From: a virus
Strand: one strand, 5' to 3'
Length of the DNA stretch: 22,355 bases
Virus record (IMG/VR): IMGVR_UViG_3300048063_000388
Location: 1-22,355 of that record
Both the position numbers and the translations under genes were made by a program. This document shows positions 1,498 through 15,930 of the stretch, piece after piece (positions within the stretch are counted from its first letter, which is position 1; every line of letters begins with the position of its first letter). The notes beneath the pieces were generated by a model. It saw only the letters and a list, made by a program, of their open reading frames with translations, had not been told where the DNA came from and made no database searches.

Positions 1498-1906
1498 TGG
1501 GGGAGGTTTGGTTAGTGCAAATGCTTGTGGAGTAAGGTGTTGCGATTGTGGAATGTATAGATAGGCCGCCTTGTTTGTCGCGTTCGGGTGGGCGTGAGCC
1601 AGAAGCGGAGACAAAGTTCTGATAGCCAAGGGTTTAGCGCGTCACTGTTGCCCGCTTCGTGGGCTGTGGGGTCTGGAGGCGCATGAAGAGAAGGTCAACG
1701 TTCGAAGTTCCGAGGGTCCGAAGGAGCTGCGTTGCATTAGCAAGCCGACGACTCCTAATCGACACAGGAAACTTAGGCCCCCACTGGGGGAAACGAATCG
1801 GTGACGAAACAAGGAGTCCCTACCTGCAAATCCAATTTTCAATTTTTGGGATTTCGGGTGATTTAGTGCACAAGTGTTCAGTGGAATTGGCAATTACTGC
1901 TAAATC
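1498..1906. other. non-coding stretch with no recognisable gene
   Basis: The open frames here (about 60-100 codons on both strands) have unlikely compositions, and one runs into the TCACAC repeats, so I do not accept them. The stretch contains a strong hairpin GCCCGC-TTC-GTGGGC (about 1649-1663) and another, CCCCC-ACT-GGGGG (about 1779-1791). No cloverleaf tRNA could be drawn. It is richer in G and C than the AT-rich repeat region that follows. A degraded gene or a structured RNA cannot be excluded. Confidence 0.5.
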
Positions 1907-2156
1907 TGTCACACTTATCACACTTGCATCACACTTTTTTGAGCTAAGTGTGACTTATTAAATGGTACCTTTATCAACGACTTACGTAATCTGTCACACA
2001 AATCACACTTTTTCTAACCCCCTAACGTTTACTTGTAACAGACCCCCAAAAAAAGTGTGATTTGTGTGACAGATTCCATAAGTGCTTAATAACTATATAA
2101 TAAAGTTAATCACACCCCCCCAAAAAAAGTGTGATACAGGTGTGATAAGTGTGACA
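1907..2156. repeat. 250-bp concentric palindrome of TCACAC/GTGTGA boxes
   Basis: TCACAC occurs at 1909, 1918, 1929, 1994, 2003 and 2110, and GTGTGA at 1948, 2055, 2064, 2129, 2140 and 2149. Each pair is mirrored exactly about position 2031.5. The inner arms 1988-2013 and 2050-2075 are a perfect 26-bp inverted repeat. The outer arms 1907-1940 and 2123-2156 differ at two bases. Within clusters the boxes are 9 or 11 bases apart, close to one helical turn. The central 36 bases are not symmetric. The element lies in the divergent intergenic region directly before the small terminase gene. It could be an origin with iterons, a terminase recognition site or an operator array. Confidence 0.9.
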
Positions 2157-2159
2157 CGC

Positions 2160-2188
2160 TTGACATTTTGTTCACTACTTGTTTTACC
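2160..2188 (+). promoter_or_regulatory. candidate promoter for the packaging operon
   Basis: TTGACA (2160-2165), 17 bases, then TTTACC (2183-2188). The -35 is perfect and the spacing ideal, but the -10 is weak. It overlaps the right edge of the TCACAC palindrome, so a protein bound there could control it. The start codon at 2196 is only 7 bases after the -10, which would make the mRNA nearly leaderless. Confidence 0.35.
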
Positions 2189-2195
2189 TTGTTAC

Positions 2196-2732
2196 ATGCC
2201 AACCAAGAAACCAGATGGTAGAACTTATGCTGCAGGTAAGAAACCAAAGCAGGTTGTTAAGCAGCAAAATGCAAAAAGAACACGGTGTCACCGTAAACGC
2301 ATGAAGGCAGAAGAAGACATGATAGTAGCTAAGAAAGATCTTGCTAAGGTTGAGAATGAGCTCTCAATCAAGCAACAGTTCCTGGATATGATGAGCCAAG
2401 CTCCTACCCCTGCCCAGCAACGGAAGGCTTTGCTTGCCATGTTTGCGGACAAAGGCATCAATCCTATCGAGGAACTGATGAGCTATACCAATAACACAGA
2501 AGTTCCCCTAAAGGAGAAAATATCTATCTGGAAGGAACTAGCCAGTTACACCCAGCCGAAACTTAAGAGCGTAGACGTCCAGCAGAACATTACGGGTGAG
2601 ATGAAGATATTGTCTGTGGACTACAGTAAGGTGTCCAAAGCTGACTTAGCAGATTCAGTTGACGCAGAAATCGTTGACATCGGCGAAGATTATGATGAAT
2701 TTCTAAGCGAGGAGGAGAGAAGTGAGTCTTGA
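2196..2732 (+). CDS. terS: terminase small subunit
   Basis: A 178-residue protein expected to bind the packaging start site on phage DNA and load the large terminase. The N-terminus is very basic (KKPDGRTYAAGKKPKQVVKQ, residues 4-23) and is followed by a helical, probably coiled-coil stretch (about 36-62). The segment GINPIEELMSYTNN (87-100) with IWKELASYTQPKLKSVD (111-127) matches the conserved core of many small terminases, in which a Gly-x-(D/N)-P helix is followed by an E-L-x-x-Y-x-x-P-K-L signature. The tail is acidic. The start at 2196 (MPTKKPDG) is preferred to an upstream ATG at 2082 because the upstream 38 codons lie inside the palindrome repeats and read as low-quality sequence. It overlaps the next gene by 11 bases. 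Confidence 0.85.
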   Translation: MPTKKPDGRTYAAGKKPKQVVKQQNAKRTRCHRKRMKAEEDMIVAKKDLAKVENELSIKQQFLDMMSQAPTPAQQRKALLAMFADKGINPIEELMSYTNNTEVPLKEKISIWKELASYTQPKLKSVDVQQNITGEMKILSVDYSKVSKADLADSVDAEIVDIGEDYDEFLSEEERSES

Positions 2733-2982
2733 GCCAATAGAGAAAGCAATCGCCATACTGGGAGAACACTTCCGTCACTATGTGGTCATAGCGTCGGATG
2801 ACGATACTCCCTTGGCATATGACGTTCGCTTCAGCGATCCCTACGCCGCATCTGGTCTGCTTAGCTCCGCAACAAAGTATCACGAGAATTTCATCAGCGA
2901 CAGTGGTAGTATGGACGATGACTGGGAGTGGAGCGAGCTGAGTGATGACGACGACTTTGACGATTATCTAGATGAATATTAG
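2722..2982 (+). CDS. 86-residue acidic protein between the terminase genes
   Basis: The start codon is GTG (2722-2724) with an excellent AGGAGG Shine-Dalgarno six bases upstream (2710-2715), lying inside the end of the small terminase gene. The protein begins MSLEPIEKAIAILGEHFRHY and ends in a strongly acidic tail (residues 65-85, mostly Asp and Glu). The N-terminal half (EHFRHYVVIASDDDTPLAYDV) looks like a small alpha/beta fold. It overlaps both neighbours by 11 bases, so translation is probably coupled. I do not recognise a function. The position suggests a packaging accessory, and the acidic tail could mimic DNA, but that is inference. Confidence 0.7.
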   Translation: MSLEPIEKAIAILGEHFRHYVVIASDDDTPLAYDVRFSDPYAASGLLSSATKYHENFISDSGSMDDDWEWSELSDDDDFDDYLDEY

Positions 2983-4285
2983 CGTCCCAGCTCAGGGATG
3001 GGAGCCAAGACCTTACCAGCTTCCATTACTGAAGTATATGTCCCAGAAGAAGCGCAGCCTGAGAGCGGTTGTTGCTTGGCACCGTCGTGCTGGTAAGGAT
3101 CTAACCTGTGTGAATATTGTTGCGATCAAGGCATTGCAGCGTGTTGGCACTTACTGGTATGTGTTGCCCTACGGCAATCAGGCACGCCGAATCGTATGGA
3201 ACGGCATGACTGGCGAGGGCAAGAAATTTATCGACTACTTCCCAAGGGAATTGGTCGAGAAGAAGAGTGAGCAGGAGATGCGTATCCACCTTAAGAATGG
3301 ATCAATCATCCAGCTCATGGGATCTGACGACCCCGATAAAATGGTTGGTGCGAATCCCGTCGGAGTGGTATTCTCGGAATATAGTATCTCCGATCCTTCA
3401 GCGTGGCAGTTGATTAACCCCATCCTTGCAGAAAACGGAGGGTGGGCGTTGTTCAACGGAACGCCTCGTGGTGAGAACCACTTCTACAAGATGCTGTTAA
3501 AAGCTCAGGCCGACAAAGCGTGGTACAGCAGCCACCTGTCGGTCAAGGACACAAAGGCGATTGCACCCGACGAACTTCGTAAAGCTCGTAACGAGCTGAA
3601 CAACGAAGCTCGCTTCCAATCGGAATATATGTGCTCGTTTAAGACTCCAGTGGAGGGAGCTTACTACGGATCGCAGATCAACAAGGCTTACAGGGAGAAG
3701 AGAGTTGTAGACAGCATCGCGGTCGACCCCCTGCTCCCTGTCCACACTGCGTGGGACTTGGGGATGGACGACGCGACAACCATTTGGTTTTTCCAGCAGT
3801 TTCGCAATGAGTTACGGATAGTGAACTACTACGAGAACAGCGGGGAGGGGCTGCCCCACTATGCACGAGAACTGCACAGGTGGTCTGCCCAGAAGGATGT
3901 GACGTATGGGAAGCACTATGCCCCACACGACATCAAGGTGCGAGAGCTTGGTACAGGCAAGTCTCGCTTAGAGACAGCCAGAGGACTTGGCTTGAAGTTT
4001 ACTCCAGTCAAGAAGCTGTCTATCATTGACGGCATCGAAGCCGTCCGAAACATTCTACCGAAGTGTTGGTTCTCAAAGACAGCGTGCTACGCAGGCATTG
4101 AGGCACTGAAGGGCTACCATAAAGAATTTGATAGCTCTCGCGCAGTTTTCAGAAAAACGCCCGTCCATGATTCCAACTCACACGGAGCAGACGCTTTCAG
4201 AACATTAGCGGTTGGTCTAAAGCAACCAAAACTGGATAAAAAGAAACCAAAGCATGAGTATCAAGTCGCAGGTATCCGTTGGTGA
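2972..4285 (+). CDS. terL: terminase large subunit (packaging ATPase and nuclease)
   Basis: A 437-residue DNA-packaging motor that cuts concatemeric phage DNA and pumps it through the portal. Motifs visible are Walker A WHRRAGKD (36-43), Walker B VGVVFSEYS (130-138, with Glu136 as likely catalytic residue), and the coupling motif FNGTPRGE (161-168). The C-terminal nuclease domain has acidic residues in HTAWDLGMDD (258-267), YAPHDIKV (316-323) and HDSNSHGADAFR (399-410). The aspartates there are the likely metal ligands of an RNase H-like fold. The length is on the short side for the family but all motifs are present. The start overlaps the previous gene by 11 bases, and its end overlaps the next by 32. 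Confidence 0.95.
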   Translation: MNISVPAQGWEPRPYQLPLLKYMSQKKRSLRAVVAWHRRAGKDLTCVNIVAIKALQRVGTYWYVLPYGNQARRIVWNGMTGEGKKFIDYFPRELVEKKSEQEMRIHLKNGSIIQLMGSDDPDKMVGANPVGVVFSEYSISDPSAWQLINPILAENGGWALFNGTPRGENHFYKMLLKAQADKAWYSSHLSVKDTKAIAPDELRKARNELNNEARFQSEYMCSFKTPVEGAYYGSQINKAYREKRVVDSIAVDPLLPVHTAWDLGMDDATTIWFFQQFRNELRIVNYYENSGEGLPHYARELHRWSAQKDVTYGKHYAPHDIKVRELGTGKSRLETARGLGLKFTPVKKLSIIDGIEAVRNILPKCWFSKTACYAGIEALKGYHKEFDSSRAVFRKTPVHDSNSHGADAFRTLAVGLKQPKLDKKKPKHEYQVAGIRW

Positions 4286-4721
4286 GGACTACCGCCTATC
4301 CTTATTGGATGAGGCGGTGGTTTTGTATCACACACAAAACGCTGATTTCATTCAGCTTCAGGATTACTACCTGAACTGCCCACACGGTGAGGAGCGTTAC
4401 TATTGGGGCACCCCCACCTACATTCTCATGGCAGAGGTACTTGAGGATGAGGTTGGTCGTTACTGGAGGATCGCCTATGCCGCTAGCCGCGACCCATCCA
4501 AGAGTGTTTCCATCTTCTTTGAACTTGCACCTTTTCCCCTTGACAGAGTATCGTTTACTCGTTACCACAGAATGCACAAACCCAACTCAGAAAAATTTTT
4601 TGAGTGGAACACTTTAAAACGTATATCAAAATATGGGCTCATCACCAAGCAAACCACCTCCTCCCCCACCACCCCCTGCTCCTCCTCCTCCTCCAGCACC
4701 GATGGCGCGGATGCCAGTTAA
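4254..4721 (+). CDS. 155-residue hypothetical protein between terminase and portal
   Basis: It starts inside the end of the large terminase gene (32-base overlap). The first 125 residues look like a genuine folded domain: IQLQDYYLNCPHGEERYYWG, then YILMAEVLEDEVGRYWRIAYAAS, then an aromatic-rich part with FELAPFPLDRVSFTRYH and FEWNTLKRISKYG. The last 30 residues, full of Ser and Thr, are read from the same DNA that encodes the proline repeat of the next gene in another frame (4633-4721), so that tail may carry little function. Small proteins with a pattern of Pro-Phe-Pro, an aromatic R/Y segment and W-x-x-L-x-R occur at this spot in other podoviruses. I do not know their function. Confidence 0.65.
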   Translation: MSIKSQVSVGEDYRLSLLDEAVVLYHTQNADFIQLQDYYLNCPHGEERYYWGTPTYILMAEVLEDEVGRYWRIAYAASRDPSKSVSIFFELAPFPLDRVSFTRYHRMHKPNSEKFFEWNTLKRISKYGLITKQTTSSPTTPCSSSSSSTDGADAS

Positions 4722-9607: not shown

Positions 9608-12554
9608 TAATGTCCAAACAGACTTCTCAGGTGGTTTAATCAGTGATTATGTTCTGGGACGTACTGATATTAAGCGCATAGCTAATTCGGGGCGCAAGTT
9701 TAGAAACTTCTTTCCATCGCTACAAGGCCCTGCTATCTTTAGGACAGGGTTTAAGTGGTACAGAACAGAGAACTATACTGGAGATGCTGTTGCGTCTATT
9801 GATGTTGTCTTATCAACAGATGAGCCTTATAGAGTAGTATTCACCCCTCAGCAAGTAGAGATATTTGACAAAGACAGTGTACTCAAGGATACAGTAGCCA
9901 CTACTTACTCTGCTACTGATATCAAAGATATTCGGTTTAGTTCAGAAACAGGAGAGCTTTATATAGCTCATGGTCTTCATAGACCAAGAAAACTTTCAGC
10001 TGACTTATCATATGTAACAGCAACACTTGTGTCCAGTGACGGCTATACCCTTGAGGACGACGGCGGAGTTACACTGCAAACTAACGTCGAAGTGCAGGGA
10101 GACGACCAGTGGACGCTGGAGGATTTGTCATTTGATGTAGAGCCTTTCCTTGAAAAAGAAGCCTCAGGTAAAAAGTTCACTATTTCACAAAATGAGCGAT
10201 ACGTTAAATTGGAGTCGAGTGTCAATTCGTTTTCAGCTGTAGTCAACAATCCAACTAGAGACTGGTATGTGGATTACACTATTGGGTCTAATAAATATTT
10301 AGGTAAGGTAGTAGACTCGACTTACACGACTAATTACACTCTCGACAACCCTACAAACACAACCGTGTATGTGGAGCCAGTTGTTTCCGTATTGGATATT
10401 GAAGATAATGCAGCACAACTCTATCTTTTAGACAGCGATGAGGTAGATGAGGCAACACAGCCATCAGTAAGTAAGGCTCTTGAGTTGGATGGGGTTGGTG
10501 AAGATGAAATACATCTGCGCTCCGACACTACAGTGTTCAGTTCGGGGTTTACCGACTCGTGGGTTCGTGTGGGTAGTGATAGACGAAATAACAATGTAGT
10601 TGTTGGTGAGAATCGTGATCTGGTTCGATGGGTTAAGATCAAAGAGCATCTTGGAGCCGAAGACCACCCTGTTGAGTTTTACAGAGGAACCTACGATAAC
10701 AGTGTGTACAAAAGCGGGAGTGTTTATAGAATATACGACGGCTTTACCAGTGGCACCTTGTATATGGCTGGCCCTGACACTCAGGGGGCTATTAAGATAG
10801 TCAACGCCGTTTTGCAAGCCGATGGAAACAGGACGTATACCTTTGTTAATAAATTATCGGCAACCAACCCACACAACGACACAAACCCACCCGCCGTAAG
10901 TGCAAGCTATGTGATTGGGAACTTATCCACCCAAAAACAATTTGACTGTGTGAAGTGTTATAATTCGGCAGACGGTATCCCGAAAGTTGAAGAGTATTCA
11001 TCTTCAAATACAGCGGGTAATCTGATAGTTCCTGCCACTTCCAGCAGTTTTACAGCCACTGAGATTGCAAATGACGCTAACCTTAATGTTACAGAAACCA
11101 CTTTCCTTCCAGAGGACATAGGCCGACATATACTTGGTCGTATGCAGTCGGGCAGCGTCTACATGAAAGTAGTTCGCTTCACCAGTGCCCAGCAAGTAGT
11201 AGTTGAACTGCTTAACTCAGCTCCTCGTGACAAACGAACACTTGCTTTTGAAAACGGAGGTTTGTTTGAAGATGTAAAACTTGGTGCGTGGTATGGTGGT
11301 AATTATCCCAGAACCGTAGCTAAATTTGAACAACGTCGTATCTTTGGAGGTACTTATCAAAACGCCAATTATATTTACTTTAGTAGAGTTGGAGAGGAGC
11401 AAAGTTTTCAGCCAACGCAGGACGACGGTGAAGTGTTGGATACAGATGCTATAACATATGCACTGGCTAATCGTAATGCATCTATTCGTTGGATCAACGC
11501 AGCTAAGGATTTGGTTGTCGGAACAACTGGTGGTATATACCGAATCGTTCCGAATCAATACCAATACGGTATTAGCCCGAAAACAATTCGTATGGAGCTT
11601 ACGGAAGAGGAACCCTGTGAGATACAGGCAGAAACAGTGGGCAGCTCTGTGTTTTATCCAGATCAGTCAGGAACAAGGCTGATGGAGTATAAACACGACA
11701 CAACCCTGAATAGCGCATCATCTAACGATGTGTCTAAGCTGATATACCCGATATTTTTAACTGACACTATCGCTCAAATTGCGTATCAGCACACACCCCA
11801 ACCAAGAATCTGGGTTCGCACCGTATCAGGTAAGTTGTACTGCTTGTCTTATCACAGACAGGAGGAGTTCTATGCGTGGTCTGAGCAGGATCTTGGTTCA
11901 AATGTAAAAGTAATGGATATGTCTGTAATGCACAAAGGATCTGCTACTGATTTGGATCAGTTGTGGATTGTTGTTCGACGTGGTGGTACTATTTATACAG
12001 AAGCGTTAGCTGAAACAGATCCTGTGCAGCTGACGGAGAGCTATCCAATGCTGGATAGCTACATTGAGTTGGTAAAACCAGAAAACGGTTTAATTAATAA
12101 CGATATAAGCGCACGCTTTGGAGCTGGAGAAACTGTTTCTGTTGTCGAAGATGGTGTATATATAGGTGAGTCAGCAACATCCGACGGAACAGTTCCAATA
12201 TCCGCACAGGCCGAGCGGGTGGTTGTGGGCCTACGCTATACAGGGGAACTACAGATGATGTTCCCGACATGGGACGCAACCAACAAACCAGCGTATTCTT
12301 CGGAAACGGCTCGTATTATCTCGATAAAGCTTTTCCTGATTAACACATGGAGCTTCATGTTGGGTATAAAGGATAGGTTTGAGACAATCCGAACATCCAC
12401 AACTTACGGAAACGGTAAAGGTTTCACTGGTTTTGATAAAGAAAGACCAGTGACAGGCTCTACATTTGGTGCCGACAATGTACCAACAATTAAGCACAGT
12501 GAGCCATACCCCTTGACAGTCGCCTCGATAACCACCAAAACTGATTTAAATTGA
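9594..12554 (+). CDS. tail tubular protein B (tail nozzle)
   Basis: A 986-residue protein that by order and pattern corresponds to the tail nozzle (T7 gp12 class; here about 200 residues longer). The N-terminus MARYSNVQTDFSGGLISDYV with GRTDIKRIANSGRKFRNFFP and GPAIFRTGFKW is highly typical, as is the later segment EQRRIFGGTYQNANYIYFSR with DTDAITYALANRNASIRWIN and LVVGTTGGIYRI. Another family hallmark, NDVSKLIYPIF, sits near residue 715. These parts form beta-propeller-like platforms in related proteins. The extra length lies mostly in the variable beta-rich insert (about residues 150-500). The start overlaps the previous gene by 14 bases. Confidence 0.9.
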   Translation: MARYSNVQTDFSGGLISDYVLGRTDIKRIANSGRKFRNFFPSLQGPAIFRTGFKWYRTENYTGDAVASIDVVLSTDEPYRVVFTPQQVEIFDKDSVLKDTVATTYSATDIKDIRFSSETGELYIAHGLHRPRKLSADLSYVTATLVSSDGYTLEDDGGVTLQTNVEVQGDDQWTLEDLSFDVEPFLEKEASGKKFTISQNERYVKLESSVNSFSAVVNNPTRDWYVDYTIGSNKYLGKVVDSTYTTNYTLDNPTNTTVYVEPVVSVLDIEDNAAQLYLLDSDEVDEATQPSVSKALELDGVGEDEIHLRSDTTVFSSGFTDSWVRVGSDRRNNNVVVGENRDLVRWVKIKEHLGAEDHPVEFYRGTYDNSVYKSGSVYRIYDGFTSGTLYMAGPDTQGAIKIVNAVLQADGNRTYTFVNKLSATNPHNDTNPPAVSASYVIGNLSTQKQFDCVKCYNSADGIPKVEEYSSSNTAGNLIVPATSSSFTATEIANDANLNVTETTFLPEDIGRHILGRMQSGSVYMKVVRFTSAQQVVVELLNSAPRDKRTLAFENGGLFEDVKLGAWYGGNYPRTVAKFEQRRIFGGTYQNANYIYFSRVGEEQSFQPTQDDGEVLDTDAITYALANRNASIRWINAAKDLVVGTTGGIYRIVPNQYQYGISPKTIRMELTEEEPCEIQAETVGSSVFYPDQSGTRLMEYKHDTTLNSASSNDVSKLIYPIFLTDTIAQIAYQHTPQPRIWVRTVSGKLYCLSYHRQEEFYAWSEQDLGSNVKVMDMSVMHKGSATDLDQLWIVVRRGGTIYTEALAETDPVQLTESYPMLDSYIELVKPENGLINNDISARFGAGETVSVVEDGVYIGESATSDGTVPISAQAERVVVGLRYTGELQMMFPTWDATNKPAYSSETARIISIKLFLINTWSFMLGIKDRFETIRTSTTYGNGKGFTGFDKERPVTGSTFGADNVPTIKHSEPYPLTVASITTKTDLN

Positions 12555-12555
12555 T

Positions 12556-13188
12556 ATGGAAGTAGCAGTAATCTCAATAATAGCTAGCTCGCTTATAAGT
12601 TATAGATCCGCGATGAATTCCGCCAAAGCGCAGGAGTATGCTGCGGAGGCTGCTGAGGCGCAGGGGGTGTATAACGCACAGATCGACGTTAACAACGCTC
12701 GTGCTGCTGCGGATCAGGAGGCTTTTAATCAGTCAGCTGCAGAAGCCAATAAATACCGAGATATGGAAGCTAACCAGAAAAAACGGACTGCTCTTTCTAA
12801 ACAACTTAATGCTGAGTTGGCCAAAGAGCGTATACAGATGACATCATCTTATGGGACATTCGAAGATACCTTTAGATCCTATGAGATGGAAGCGAATAAT
12901 CGCCTTGCTAGTTTTGACTTTGACGCATCCGAATCAAGTTACCAATACAATTTGCAATCAGGAGAGGCTGGGCGTAAACGTAACCTAGCATGGGATCAGG
13001 GTCTTGCTCAGCGTGAACTAACACTAGCTTCTTCTGCCAACCAAGCTACACAGCTCCGCAATCAAGCATCAAACACCAGACTTGGTGCTTATGGTTCTTT
13101 GATTGGTGGGATCGGACAAGCAGCTTATATGGGCAGTGAAATGAAGCCCTCGGCAGCCAAGGGCCAGCCCTCGGCAGCCAAGGGCTAG
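12556..13188 (+). CDS. internal virion protein B-like (T7 gp14 position)
   Basis: A 210-residue protein starting one base after the nozzle gene. It has a short hydrophobic N-terminus (VAVISIIASSLISY, residues 3-16) and then a long Ala/Glu/Gln-rich helical coil (about 20-110) rich in AAEAAEAQG and NNARAAADQE. A Gly-rich hydrophobic stretch, LGAYGSLIGGIGQAAYMGSE, lies near the end. This matches the first ejection protein of T7-like virions, which crosses the outer membrane during infection. The last residues are a tandem PSAAKGQ repeat encoded by 21-bp DNA repeats, an unusual ending that looks recently added. Confidence 0.78.
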   Translation: MEVAVISIIASSLISYRSAMNSAKAQEYAAEAAEAQGVYNAQIDVNNARAAADQEAFNQSAAEANKYRDMEANQKKRTALSKQLNAELAKERIQMTSSYGTFEDTFRSYEMEANNRLASFDFDASESSYQYNLQSGEAGRKRNLAWDQGLAQRELTLASSANQATQLRNQASNTRLGAYGSLIGGIGQAAYMGSEMKPSAAKGQPSAAKG

Positions 13189-13200
13189 CCCTCGGCATAG
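13146..13200 (+). repeat. 21-bp tandem repeat at the end of the gp14-like gene
   Basis: Unit GCCCTCGGCAGCCAAGGGC plus two bases: copies at 13146-13166 and 13167-13187, and a 13-base partial copy at 13188-13200. Each unit can fold on itself (GCCCT with AGGGC). The two full copies differ by one base, C to T, which turns CAG (Gln) into the TAG stop at 13186-13188. The third copy lies after the stop and ends in a second TAG in the same frame. Confidence 0.9.
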
Positions 13201-13218
13201 AAACCGAAAGAGTGATAT

Positions 13219-15930
13219 ATGGCCATTCAATTAAATACCCAAACTGCTCCTCAGCAAAAAGCACCTTTCTCAGCTTTTGATACTACTTCGAACTACCGAA
13301 GTGGTTTATCTGATGTAGCCCAAGGTCTCAGTCAAGTAGGCCAAGCTGCGTTTAAAATAGCTACGGAACAAAAGCGACAGAAAGAGCAAGCACAGAAGTT
13401 GCTGTCAGGGGAGGCTTATACAAACTACAACGTAGAACTTGATCGTGCGCATAATGAACTTGATCACGCCTTTAAAACAGGAAACATTGATCAGATAAAT
13501 CAAGCAAAGGCTAATTTTAGCAAGCTTCAAGAGCCCGATTTTAATAAATTTCTGGGTGAAGACGCAGGTGGTTTGATTGAAAGCGAATCGGCTCTTGCTC
13601 CTTACCGACAAAAAGCAGGTGAGTCGTGGGGTATGCTTAACAACAAGGTTCTTCTTCAAGAGAACAATAGGCTGGTTTCAAATCGAACCAATAGGCATCT
13701 TGATGGACTAAGAAGCACAACTATCCGAGCAATTACCAACAACCCTTCTGGGCTTCCGTCAGCGGATGCAGTTGCTCTTTTCAACTCGCTAATACCTTCT
13801 GACGAATTTCATAATCTGCTGGATGCACAGCTTACAGGGGATATGCGGAATGCGTTTGGAAGAAATGCAGCCAGCAGTGCTGTTGCTCTACTAAAGCATC
13901 AGCTAAAAACAGCAAACAGTGCTGATGAGTTGAACGCTCGCAAAGAAATAGGCGATGCGTTTGTAAACGAGTCTCTGTCTAGTTATGGTTTTACCGAGGA
14001 GCATTTACTTAATCTAGAGGACATATATAATACAAGATATGCTGAAGTAAGCGACCCCACTTATTTAGTAGAACAAGCAGAGGAAGAATTTACTACTCTT
14101 AATAACACCTACGATGCTTTTTGGAATCTTACGTCAGCTACTGACTCAAGAAGCGCAGCTCAAAAGTTGGAGCAACAGGTAATTAATGCAAAAGAAAACC
14201 CTTACGTTGTAAAAGAACACGGAGATGCCCTTAGAGAAATGGAAGAGGTGTTGTCCATGTTTACACCCCCAGTGGATGCTCAGGGCAACCTGTTGGGGGA
14301 TAGGGACTCCTTAGTTGATCTTTTGGCTCGGCGATTTATTCTCAGCAGACCAGATAGCCGACCATCCTTTGCTGACTTTCAGGTTATTGTTGATAAAGAT
14401 AGTACCTTAAGTAACAAAACAGTCGAGAGAGTACAGAACTACATTAACTCGCGCATAGACATAGTAGAGCGAGGTTTGGCGGAAAGTGACCTAGCATCAC
14501 TAGGCGCATTGTATCCTGATTTTAAAAATGCTATTACATCGGGAGATCAGGATAAAGCCCGTCTTTACTACACGGAAGTAATTCTGCCAGAGCTTACAGC
14601 TGAAGGTATGGATGCTGGGGTTTATGGTGAAGTTGGAGGTAATATCAAACTACCTCCTGAGATGTGGTTTGGATTAACCGATGAAGTAGTTTCTGGAAGA
14701 TTTAAACAAAGACACAGTGTGGAGCAAGCCGCTTCCGATGTGTACAACCTACTTGTTAAAAACAGAGGTCACGAGGAGGCGGCAATTGCAGGTGCTATGT
14801 TTGCTGCAGGCAGTCCAAGTATATCCGAAGGAAAGCATCAAACTTATATGCTTTTCATGGCTGCAGCAAGAGCTGTTCGCGAGGGAGATGATCCACAGAC
14901 AGTGACGGAACAGTTACTTGAGTTTGATCGCTTGGCGGTGACTAACGTAGATAATGATCAAGTTAATGATCTATACGACGAGTTTTACGCCAAAGAGGAT
15001 GTTGGCGCAGTGATGGATGTAGAGTTGCTTGATTCAGTACAAAGAATTAAGCAACTTGATGGTACTACCCGATACAGGGAAAAAGTTTTCTATGAAAACC
15101 AACTAAAGGGTTTAATTGCTAAGTATGTTAAGCAGGGACATTCGACTGATGAGGTATTTGAGTTAGTGCAGCAGCACGAAGACAGATATCTTCGACCTTA
15201 TTATGGAACTTTGCGTCAAGTTAGAGAAGGTCAGACTGCTTTTATACACCCCGAAGTTTACAACGAAAATGTTGATCCAAAATACGAGCGAAGAGGTCTT
15301 TTAGGATCAATGTTTATTAGTCCCATCAGTGAGGTGCCCGCTTTAGGCGGTAAGACAGGGGCAAAGCGTGTTGCCGAGATCAGTCAGGCAGCAGTAATTG
15401 CGTGGGCAACCAAGCACTACAATATTCTTGATACCGATATAGTCCGAGGAGATATGGATTTTGGTTTTCGAGATCTGAAAGCAGAAATCGAGAAGACAAC
15501 CTTACCTGTTGGAGAGGTGGGTTTTACTCCCGAACTTTACCGCAGCCAAATGGAAGCTGAAGGTGTTGAGGAAATGGATCAGCGAGCTTTATTCCTTGGT
15601 CTTAGTAATAACAATTACTATCCCGCAGGTGAAGGGCTTTTTGGTCCAAAAGGTGACGGAGTTCCGATTGCAGAGGTTCGTGGTACTACATTTAGACAAG
15701 GAAGGGAATATTATGTTTTGGAAGCTTACAATCCTCGGCTGCTTAGGTACGAATCTATTGTAGATTCAGATAATAAAGAAGTCTTGGTTCCAGTAGATGT
15801 CATCAACCCAATAATACGTAAAGCTGTTTTGGAGGATGTCGGTTTGAATCCTCTTGATGTTACAATTGGTGATTTTACTACATCAGCCACCTCTTCTCAA
15901 AACAGAGTGTGGAACCTACTCAGTCAATAA
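13219..15930 (+). CDS. internal virion protein C-like (T7 gp15 position)
   Basis: A 903-residue, mostly helical protein between the gp14-like and gp16-like proteins, corresponding by order and size to the second ejection protein (T7 gp15, about 750 residues). The N-terminus MAIQLNTQTAPQQKAPFSAF is followed by amphipathic helices (DVAQGLSQVGQAAFKIATEQ, near residues 33-52) and a long coil-rich body. No transglycosylase signature or other enzyme motif could be found. The C-terminal third is more beta-rich (EVPALGGKTG..., EYYVLEAYNPRLLRYESIVD). It is expected to line the channel through the periplasm. Its stop is followed at once by the next ATG. Confidence 0.8.
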   Translation: MAIQLNTQTAPQQKAPFSAFDTTSNYRSGLSDVAQGLSQVGQAAFKIATEQKRQKEQAQKLLSGEAYTNYNVELDRAHNELDHAFKTGNIDQINQAKANFSKLQEPDFNKFLGEDAGGLIESESALAPYRQKAGESWGMLNNKVLLQENNRLVSNRTNRHLDGLRSTTIRAITNNPSGLPSADAVALFNSLIPSDEFHNLLDAQLTGDMRNAFGRNAASSAVALLKHQLKTANSADELNARKEIGDAFVNESLSSYGFTEEHLLNLEDIYNTRYAEVSDPTYLVEQAEEEFTTLNNTYDAFWNLTSATDSRSAAQKLEQQVINAKENPYVVKEHGDALREMEEVLSMFTPPVDAQGNLLGDRDSLVDLLARRFILSRPDSRPSFADFQVIVDKDSTLSNKTVERVQNYINSRIDIVERGLAESDLASLGALYPDFKNAITSGDQDKARLYYTEVILPELTAEGMDAGVYGEVGGNIKLPPEMWFGLTDEVVSGRFKQRHSVEQAASDVYNLLVKNRGHEEAAIAGAMFAAGSPSISEGKHQTYMLFMAAARAVREGDDPQTVTEQLLEFDRLAVTNVDNDQVNDLYDEFYAKEDVGAVMDVELLDSVQRIKQLDGTTRYREKVFYENQLKGLIAKYVKQGHSTDEVFELVQQHEDRYLRPYYGTLRQVREGQTAFIHPEVYNENVDPKYERRGLLGSMFISPISEVPALGGKTGAKRVAEISQAAVIAWATKHYNILDTDIVRGDMDFGFRDLKAEIEKTTLPVGEVGFTPELYRSQMEAEGVEEMDQRALFLGLSNNNYYPAGEGLFGPKGDGVPIAEVRGTTFRQGREYYVLEAYNPRLLRYESIVDSDNKEVLVPVDVINPIIRKAVLEDVGLNPLDVTIGDFTTSATSSQNRVWNLLSQ

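Follow-up and report, generated by a model that had tools for sequence, protein, structure and literature searches.

A mirrored array of short boxes before the terminase genes of a phage family, a candidate site for the initiation of DNA packaging

To our knowledge, packaging sites are known in detail in only a few model phages. In the pac site of P1, groups of hexamers flank the cut. Iteron origins, such as ori-lambda and those of R6K and pSC101, consist of direct repeats in AT-rich surroundings, with IHF taking part in some. As outlined in the passages on cosB in PMC9026076 and PMC4669245, this site in lambda-like phages is ordered as R3, the IHF site I1, R2 (inverted), R1 and the small terminase gene (terS); the IHF bend lets TerS dock on R3 and R2, and the layout is fixed while phages differ in the specificity of the word. 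The P1 pac site is presented, in the part of PMC10028697 that concerns it, as two hexamer groups (HEX4 and HEX3) with an IHF site, for which a bent complex is proposed, and at the SPP1 pac site TerS binds in two places, unlike in lambda, which is one-sided, according to the portion of PMC4856287 on this point. Among the matches listed for titles and abstract openings of the open-licence literature, no array of the kind reported here was described.

The array and its genomic setting

The window (the whole stretch of viral DNA analysed, 22,355 nucleotides, from an IMG/VR record) matches the assembly G019 at 99.99% identity. G019 is 42,465 bases long, its ends overlap by 127 bases, and it was taken as a complete circle; its leftward genes encode DNA polymerase, primase and two helicases, and its rightward genes encode terminase, portal-like, capsid and tail proteins. 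The array lies between these divergent gene blocks, directly before terS, where the first-pass annotation had placed it, and a putative terS was found in 68/68 related loci. The features of the window are as follows (coordinates, strand, description).

1813..1840, minus: second conserved non-coding element, left of the array, minus-strand sequence GAAAATTGGATTTGCAGGTAGGGACTCC
1907..2156, no strand: whole mirrored box array, centre 2031.5
1909..1934, plus: left outer box triple, TCACAC at 1909, 1918 and 1929 (spacing 9 and 11)
1948..1953, minus: left opposed box, from the exact TCACAC search
1972..1984, plus: motif of the left arm fitting the presumed IHF consensus, TATCAACGACTTA; exact in 51/60 distinct rows, one mismatch in 9
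1994..2008, plus: left inner box pair, boxes at 1994 and 2003 (spacing 9)
2014..2049, no strand: asymmetric, unconserved centre, mean majority frequency 0.53
2055..2069, minus: right inner box pair, boxes at 2055 and 2064
2079..2091, minus: IHF-like motif of the right arm, window copy TATTAAGCACTTA, one mismatch to the consensus
2096..2101, plus: promoter-like TATAAT, from sequence; the same or AT-rich equivalents stand there in relatives
2110..2115, plus: right opposed box, from the exact TCACAC search
2129..2154, minus: right outer box triple on the terS side, boxes at 2129, 2140 and 2149 (spacing 11 and 9)
2160..2165, plus: TTGACA adjoining the last box, present in 47/49 distinct relatives
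2196..2732, plus: putative small terminase of 178 aa, so called for its position in front of terL
2972..4285, plus: large terminase (phrog_2, terminase large subunit, 9.8e-28)

An exact search of both strands found 18 copies of TCACAC in the window, 12 of them at 1909-2154, six per strand. The arms of the inverted repeat (1907-2013 and 2050-2156; 107 nt, 79% complementary) are separated by 36 nt, and 87 of the 125 position pairs about 2031.5 are complementary, against a mean of 31.4 (sd 5.0) over all window centres; the second-best centre, with 57 pairs, belongs to a separate inverted repeat centred at 1110.5. When the circular assembly G019 was searched for 250-bp palindromes the array ranked best (z 11.1), and folded as a single DNA strand it reaches -62.8 kcal/mol, compared with -18.9 (sd 3.3) for shuffles (z -13.3). 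The twelve mirrored boxes that the first-pass annotation described are thus confirmed, as are its perfect 26-bp inner arm (1988-2013), its 34-nt outer arm with two mismatches and the asymmetry of the central 36 bases, which are also unconserved. Its description of the stretches between the clusters as diverged filler needs correction: the left stretch contains the best-conserved part of those compared, the 13-bp motif.

The putative TerS had no PHROG hit and no Pfam hit above the cut-off, and a PDB sequence search gave no convincing match. The closest TerL in the phage collection, from an uncultivated record, is 49% identical, and blastn of positions 1500-4300 against that collection gave no match. 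A relative with 86% identical TerL and a site with GCTCAC boxes (L250, NZ_NZMB01000001.1) was binned with a Sneathiella metagenome-assembled genome, a hint at an alphaproteobacterial host or at a binning error.

Several other features of these genomes were noted. The core of the element at 1813..1840 is recognisable in 41 rows of a reduced alignment (55 loci, 51 distinct); it adjoins the stretch 1500-1800, which, like the matching regions of relatives, is GC-rich with very low conservation. A structured RNA left of the site was rejected, as no Rfam hit reached the gathering score and 1500-1860 folds no better than its shuffles. A large imperfect inverted repeat occupies 727-1497, its right half being a degenerate mirror copy, frame-broken by eye, of the region of a 75-aa ORF at 773-1000; a comparable self-inverted stretch (78.8%) lies at 21988-22629 of G004. 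An early gene group at 9896-13607 of G019 (L132) encodes a ThiF/E1-like protein (PF00899, 8.7e-16), a protein with a weak E2-family match below the cut-off (PF14460, E 0.052) and a 76-aa protein that is ubiquitin-like by eye, and is perhaps a phage ubiquitin-like conjugation cassette. In six genomes (G019, G020, G005, G003, G012 and G029) the cumulative GC skew rises over nearly the whole circle on the terL strand and keeps rising although the early genes run the opposite way; at four-fold sites the coding-strand skew is -0.27 to -0.45 in opposed genes and -0.11 to +0.13 in co-directed genes. This pattern fits one-way replication.

Spacing and box words in relatives and other phages

Relatives were taken from a TerL search (the best 80 of 336 viral loci), from which 12 with fewer than 1000 bases upstream were dropped, leaving 68. 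In 68/68 of these the motif TATCAACGACTTA (at most two mismatches) occurs 730-1039 bases before terL, surrounded by box words, and the array precedes terS; the array that the first-pass annotation proposed to seek there in related phages is therefore present in every one of the 68. L038 and L077 have lost its left outer part to the contig end. The 60 distinct array sequences were aligned, and 38 rows were left below 93% identity.

Spacing, as read from the alignment, is nearly invariant. It was counted in the 34/38 rows whose first left box has no alignment gap, which omits L046 and L058 (gap in that box) and L038 and L077 (left arm missing). Box columns stand 9/11/9 apart in both arms (distances between alignment columns, not exact word positions), the outer-to-inner group distance is 65-66 and the distance across the centre is 50-53. 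Measured from exact word positions, the spacing in the right triple is 10/9 in L044, L045, L048, L049 and L070, a shift of one base. The earlier proposal that box spacing is under selection is well supported, since none of the 34 aligned rows has an insertion or deletion inside the box groups, with 10 in place of 11 in the L044 and L070 types. The right opposed box has at least five of the six letters of the genome's own word in 37/38 rows, compared with 141/646 for other-class words; for the left opposed box, taken at the best offset in a 20-base stretch, the figure is 25/38 non-redundant rows. Each genome has one such array: among the 11 genomes or contigs tested, 4-12 exact words occur at the site and 1-4 in the next-best 260-bp cluster, the contrast being weak in G029 (4 versus 3). 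G032, whose TerS is more distant (62%), carries a comparable site that uses different words.

The box word changes by lineage and does so in concert within a genome. Over the 38 rows, mean majority frequency reaches 0.94 in the ACAC half of the boxes and 0.55 in the four letters before ACAC, compared with 0.70-0.72 for the rest of the between-group stretches and 0.53 for the centre. Lineage words include TCACAC, GTACAC, TAGACAC and TTGACAC, and those read across the rows are TATCACAC, GTTCACAC, GCTCACAC, GGTCACAC, TGGTACAC and CTAGACAC, together with ACAGACAC, ATAGACAC, GTAGACAC, GTTGACAC, TGTGACAC and CCTGACAC. Of 4 variable letters, left and right words have 2.93 in common within a genome and 1.47 between genomes, and 0/20000 random re-pairings of arms reach the within-genome identity. 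In the close relatives L040 and L047 the letter preceding TCACAC is A/G in the former and T/C in the latter at almost all boxes, and the 37 bases around the left motif are identical; the array thus looks like one that tracks a changing reader, with no replacement of the module.

The 13-bp motif fits WATCAANNNNTTR, which we take to be the IHF consensus. In the 38 rows the mean majority frequency of the left motif is 0.99, the highest of the parts compared, and that of the right copy 0.87; over the 60 distinct rows the right motif is exact in 25, with one mismatch in 19 and two in 16. The left motif is the only exact consensus match in the window, where the mean chance expectation is 1.18; with about one chance match expected per window, the case for IHF rests on the motif's place and conservation. 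The NNNN part of the left motif is also conserved, beyond what IHF needs, and a binder other than IHF is therefore possible. A second TATCAAGGACTTA lies about 510-520 bases left of the site in G012 (~34580) and G033 (~2193), within similar non-coding stretches with several hairpins by eye.

Similar arrays were found in other phages. Three triple patterns of family words match 17, 14 and 7 viral contigs, 37/38 within the family: 35 had come up before in the TerL or TerS lists, and L286 and L287 also have terS and terL. In the 14,576 bases of L273, the window's terS, terL, portal and capsid proteins have no match. Looser 9/11 triples occur with GTACAC in 15 contigs (12 outside the family, including L273) and with TCACAC in 42 (6 outside), family membership being judged by contig name and gene content. 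The 18 outside contigs, many of them near-copies, form about seven groups, five with terS. In 16/18 a terS-like gene lies 0.02-1.1 kb downstream of the array, separated from it by zero to three ORFs; five of these 16 genes were tested, and eleven were judged on the strength of identical or almost identical first 45 residues. In L306 terL is found about 1.3 kb further along, and L291 has neither terS nor terL. The terS-like gene of L273 matches PF16677 (1.6e-15) and phrog_606, those of L299 and L290 match phrog_51, and those of L288 and L289 had no PHROG hit; identity to the annotated terS of Pelagibacter phage HTVC023P is 42.9% for L290, 43.6% for L289 and 50.4% for L288. In four of the five terS groups TerS is related to that of HTVC023P or HTVC027P.

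Among the 16 terS-bearing contigs the triple is oriented as in the window's right arm in all but L273, where it is opposite. Toward the terminase gene the layout is pair(9)-opposed-triple(11,9) in L299, as in the window, and pair(8)-opposed-triple(11,9) in L290; L288 and L289 have a pair or a single box followed by four boxes, and L273 has a forward triple and an inverted pair. The array is one-sided in L288, L289, L290 and L299. The association of array and terS is strong in these contigs and far from universal: the exact 9/11 six-base triple is absent from HTVC023P, HTVC027P, 023Pt_psg01 and DSL-LC04, which have related TerS, and a comparable site was absent, by weak tests, in 16 phage-collection records examined. 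In 12 phage-collection records with distant TerL the best palindromes reach z 2.8-5.0, in a scan that is weak, as the known sites of G010 and L250 were also missed. In the isolate L312 (HTVC023P) about five copies of CTAGGAAA were seen by eye within the 200 bases before terS, perhaps a further word of such a site.

The packaging reading, its reader and the alternatives

An array that stands before the packaging genes with nearly fixed spacing and a changing word, and that has similar arrays elsewhere, is most likely the place where DNA loading starts. On balance, if only just, we take it to be the phage's DNA-packaging initiation site, assisted by IHF and two-sided in this family. A protein encoded or recruited by the phage would bind the short boxes, of which two lie toward the centre and four toward the outside of a bend that host IHF would make; the bend would join both box groups, as in lambda cosB. 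The complex would hold the terminase, and the concatemer would be cut in or near the unconserved centre and the DNA loaded. In the window's family the unit would have been doubled as mirror images, so that it flanks the cut region from both sides, an arrangement like that of P1 pac and SPP1 pac. The box word would drift by lineage with its reader, the IHF-like motif and the spacing staying nearly fixed. No sign of a fixed DNA end was found at the centre, through which the circular assemblies G019 and G020 run. Among upstream contig ends (64 counted, 71/80 loci), 11 lie at 1000-1299 bases before terL, near the outer left edge of the array, and 3 at 800-999.

For the reader, word distance was compared with protein distance in 37 protein families, the control being one median protein distance only. 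The partial correlation is 0.25 for TerS, 0.54 for TerL and 0.52-0.56 for primase, polymerase and a UvrD-like helicase, and no covarying cognate initiator was recognised among the 37 families. The lack of covariation between TerS and the word speaks against packaging in its simplest version. The proposal of a terminase recognition site in the first-pass annotation is strengthened by the cosB-like order, the single site per genome and the arrays before terS elsewhere, and is opposed by this lack of covariation. TerS was rejected as a simple reader, its basic segment being identical across different words (for example in L057, L061 and L068), and an N-terminal HTH was not seen in its model, which is of low confidence (mean pLDDT 66, pTM 0.32). 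The highest partial correlation, 0.74 in 19 genomes, belongs to a 112-aa protein with two membrane helices, which in the recombinants G010, G011 and L185 follows the box class, as TerS and TerL do not. Such a protein is unlikely to read DNA, and a neighbour or plain linkage may explain the correlation.

Four further candidates were set aside: a 313-aa early protein that differs strongly between G004 and G005, whose palindrome is the same; an ORF of about 90 aa upstream of the polymerase gene, with similar helices at different words and different helices at the same word; the C-terminal part of primase, which is conserved across words; and a free-standing ORF like sigma region 4, which was found in nine distinct contigs (11 entries) and L182 and is not universal. 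This last ORF (73-100 aa; TRERIRQIEAKALRKLR) resembles sigma-70 region 4 by eye and lies between a membrane-protein gene and the ubiquitin-like gene in L024, L026, L027, L029, L032 (=G004), L034 (=G005), L035, L039 and G020, and also in L182. The broader proposal that 9/11 ACAC arrays form an undescribed class of packaging start, with a drifting word and a separate adaptor in place of TerS as reader, mirrored in the window's family, is tentative and rather doubtful.

A site before terS could also be the control region of the late operon. The array might be a dyad operator or enhancer between the early (leftward) and late (rightward) blocks, at which a lineage-specific regulator and IHF would control outward promoters, chiefly a terS promoter with TTGACA as its -35; we regard this as unlikely, yet as a serious alternative. 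Divergent blocks lie on either side in G019, TATAAT stands in the right arm, and TTGACA directly follows the last box in 47/49 distinct rows (TTGACT in L018 and L030). Intervening ORFs between array and terS (one in L288 and L290, three in L298) are as expected for an operon promoter. However, the -10 sequence after TTGACA matches at only 3-5 of 6 positions, the two arms hold no consensus sigma-70 promoter pairs, and scanning 1500-2400 for sigma-70 promoters gave one hit inside terS (shuffles 1.2) and none within the array or next to it. No TTGACA was seen by eye in about 100 bases on the terS side in L288, L289, L290 and L299, the genomes tested have no further word array elsewhere, and genes for repressor, integrase or RNA polymerase were not recognised in family scans of part of the ORFs. 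The dyad operator listed in the first-pass annotation is favoured by the TTGACA and opposed by arms without consensus promoter pairs.

The same annotation also raised an iteron-type origin, at which an initiator would bind the boxes, IHF would bend the DNA and AT-rich stretches would open. The IHF-like sites resemble those of the iteron origins in which IHF takes part. The direct repeats at about one helical turn and the AT-rich arms are iteron-like in general, by the account in PMC7466680. On the terL strand G is in excess over almost the whole circle in six genomes, a pattern that one-way replication would give. The resemblance to iteron origins is a general one: none of the replication proteins shows a marked covariation with the word (their values are like that of TerL), the GC skew does not point to the array, and the arrays elsewhere stand by terS, a helicase being the nearest large ORF only in L291. 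We therefore hold an origin here to be quite improbable, and a two-way origin was rejected for want of a GC-skew turn at the site.

A hairpin or cruciform of DNA or RNA, with base pairing itself under selection, would account for the very stable single-strand fold and for mirror box pairs being more alike (3.27 of 4) than non-mirror left-right pairs (2.84; higher in 29/38 rows, lower in 6), but the non-pairing boxes of one arm share their word too (2.85 of 4), much of the between-box stretches is unpaired, and the arrays of L288, L289, L290 and L299 are one-sided, so that this explanation is very improbable. A telomere was rejected on the non-palindromic centre, and an attP site on the failure to recognise an integrase in the scans made.

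If the array is a packaging start, its nearly fixed spacing, about a dozen natural words changing in concert and the close relatives L040 and L047, which differ chiefly in the word, would offer a ready system for the study of change in packaging specificity. Should its grammar hold, packaging starts would be predictable from sequence in uncultivated marine phages, and the reader would be a defined target.

Comparison with known packaging sites and origins

Iteron origins differ from the array, which has mirror symmetry, no adjacent initiator gene that could be found and a link to terS. The likeness to the cosB of lambda-like phages is closer. From the centre of the window toward terS there follow a box pair, the IHF-like motif, an inverted box and a box triple, with terS 165 bases from the centre; lambda-like cosB, as the cited accounts give it for lambda, 21, phi80, Gifsy-1 and Monarch, likewise has repeated words, an IHF-type site between them, one word inverted and terS next, the IHF likeness of the array being one of consensus match only. 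Lambda-like cosB has three R sites of about 16 bp, whereas the array has six-base boxes in pairs and triples, mirrored on both sides. A conserved cosN adjoins cosB, in contrast to the unconserved centre of the array, and in the N-terminal wHTH of the cosB-binding TerS the recognition helix changes with the word, whereas the TerS of the present family has no recognised wHTH and does not covary.

Two box groups with an IHF site or motif are common to P1 pac, as far as its cited description extends, and the array. The hexamers of P1 read TGATCA/G, contain Dam sites and are located within pacA, whereas the array has ACAC words outside terS, arranged as a mirror image and varying by lineage. Finally, pacL and pacR of SPP1 share no sequence identity, whereas the two sides of the array share both word and spacing.
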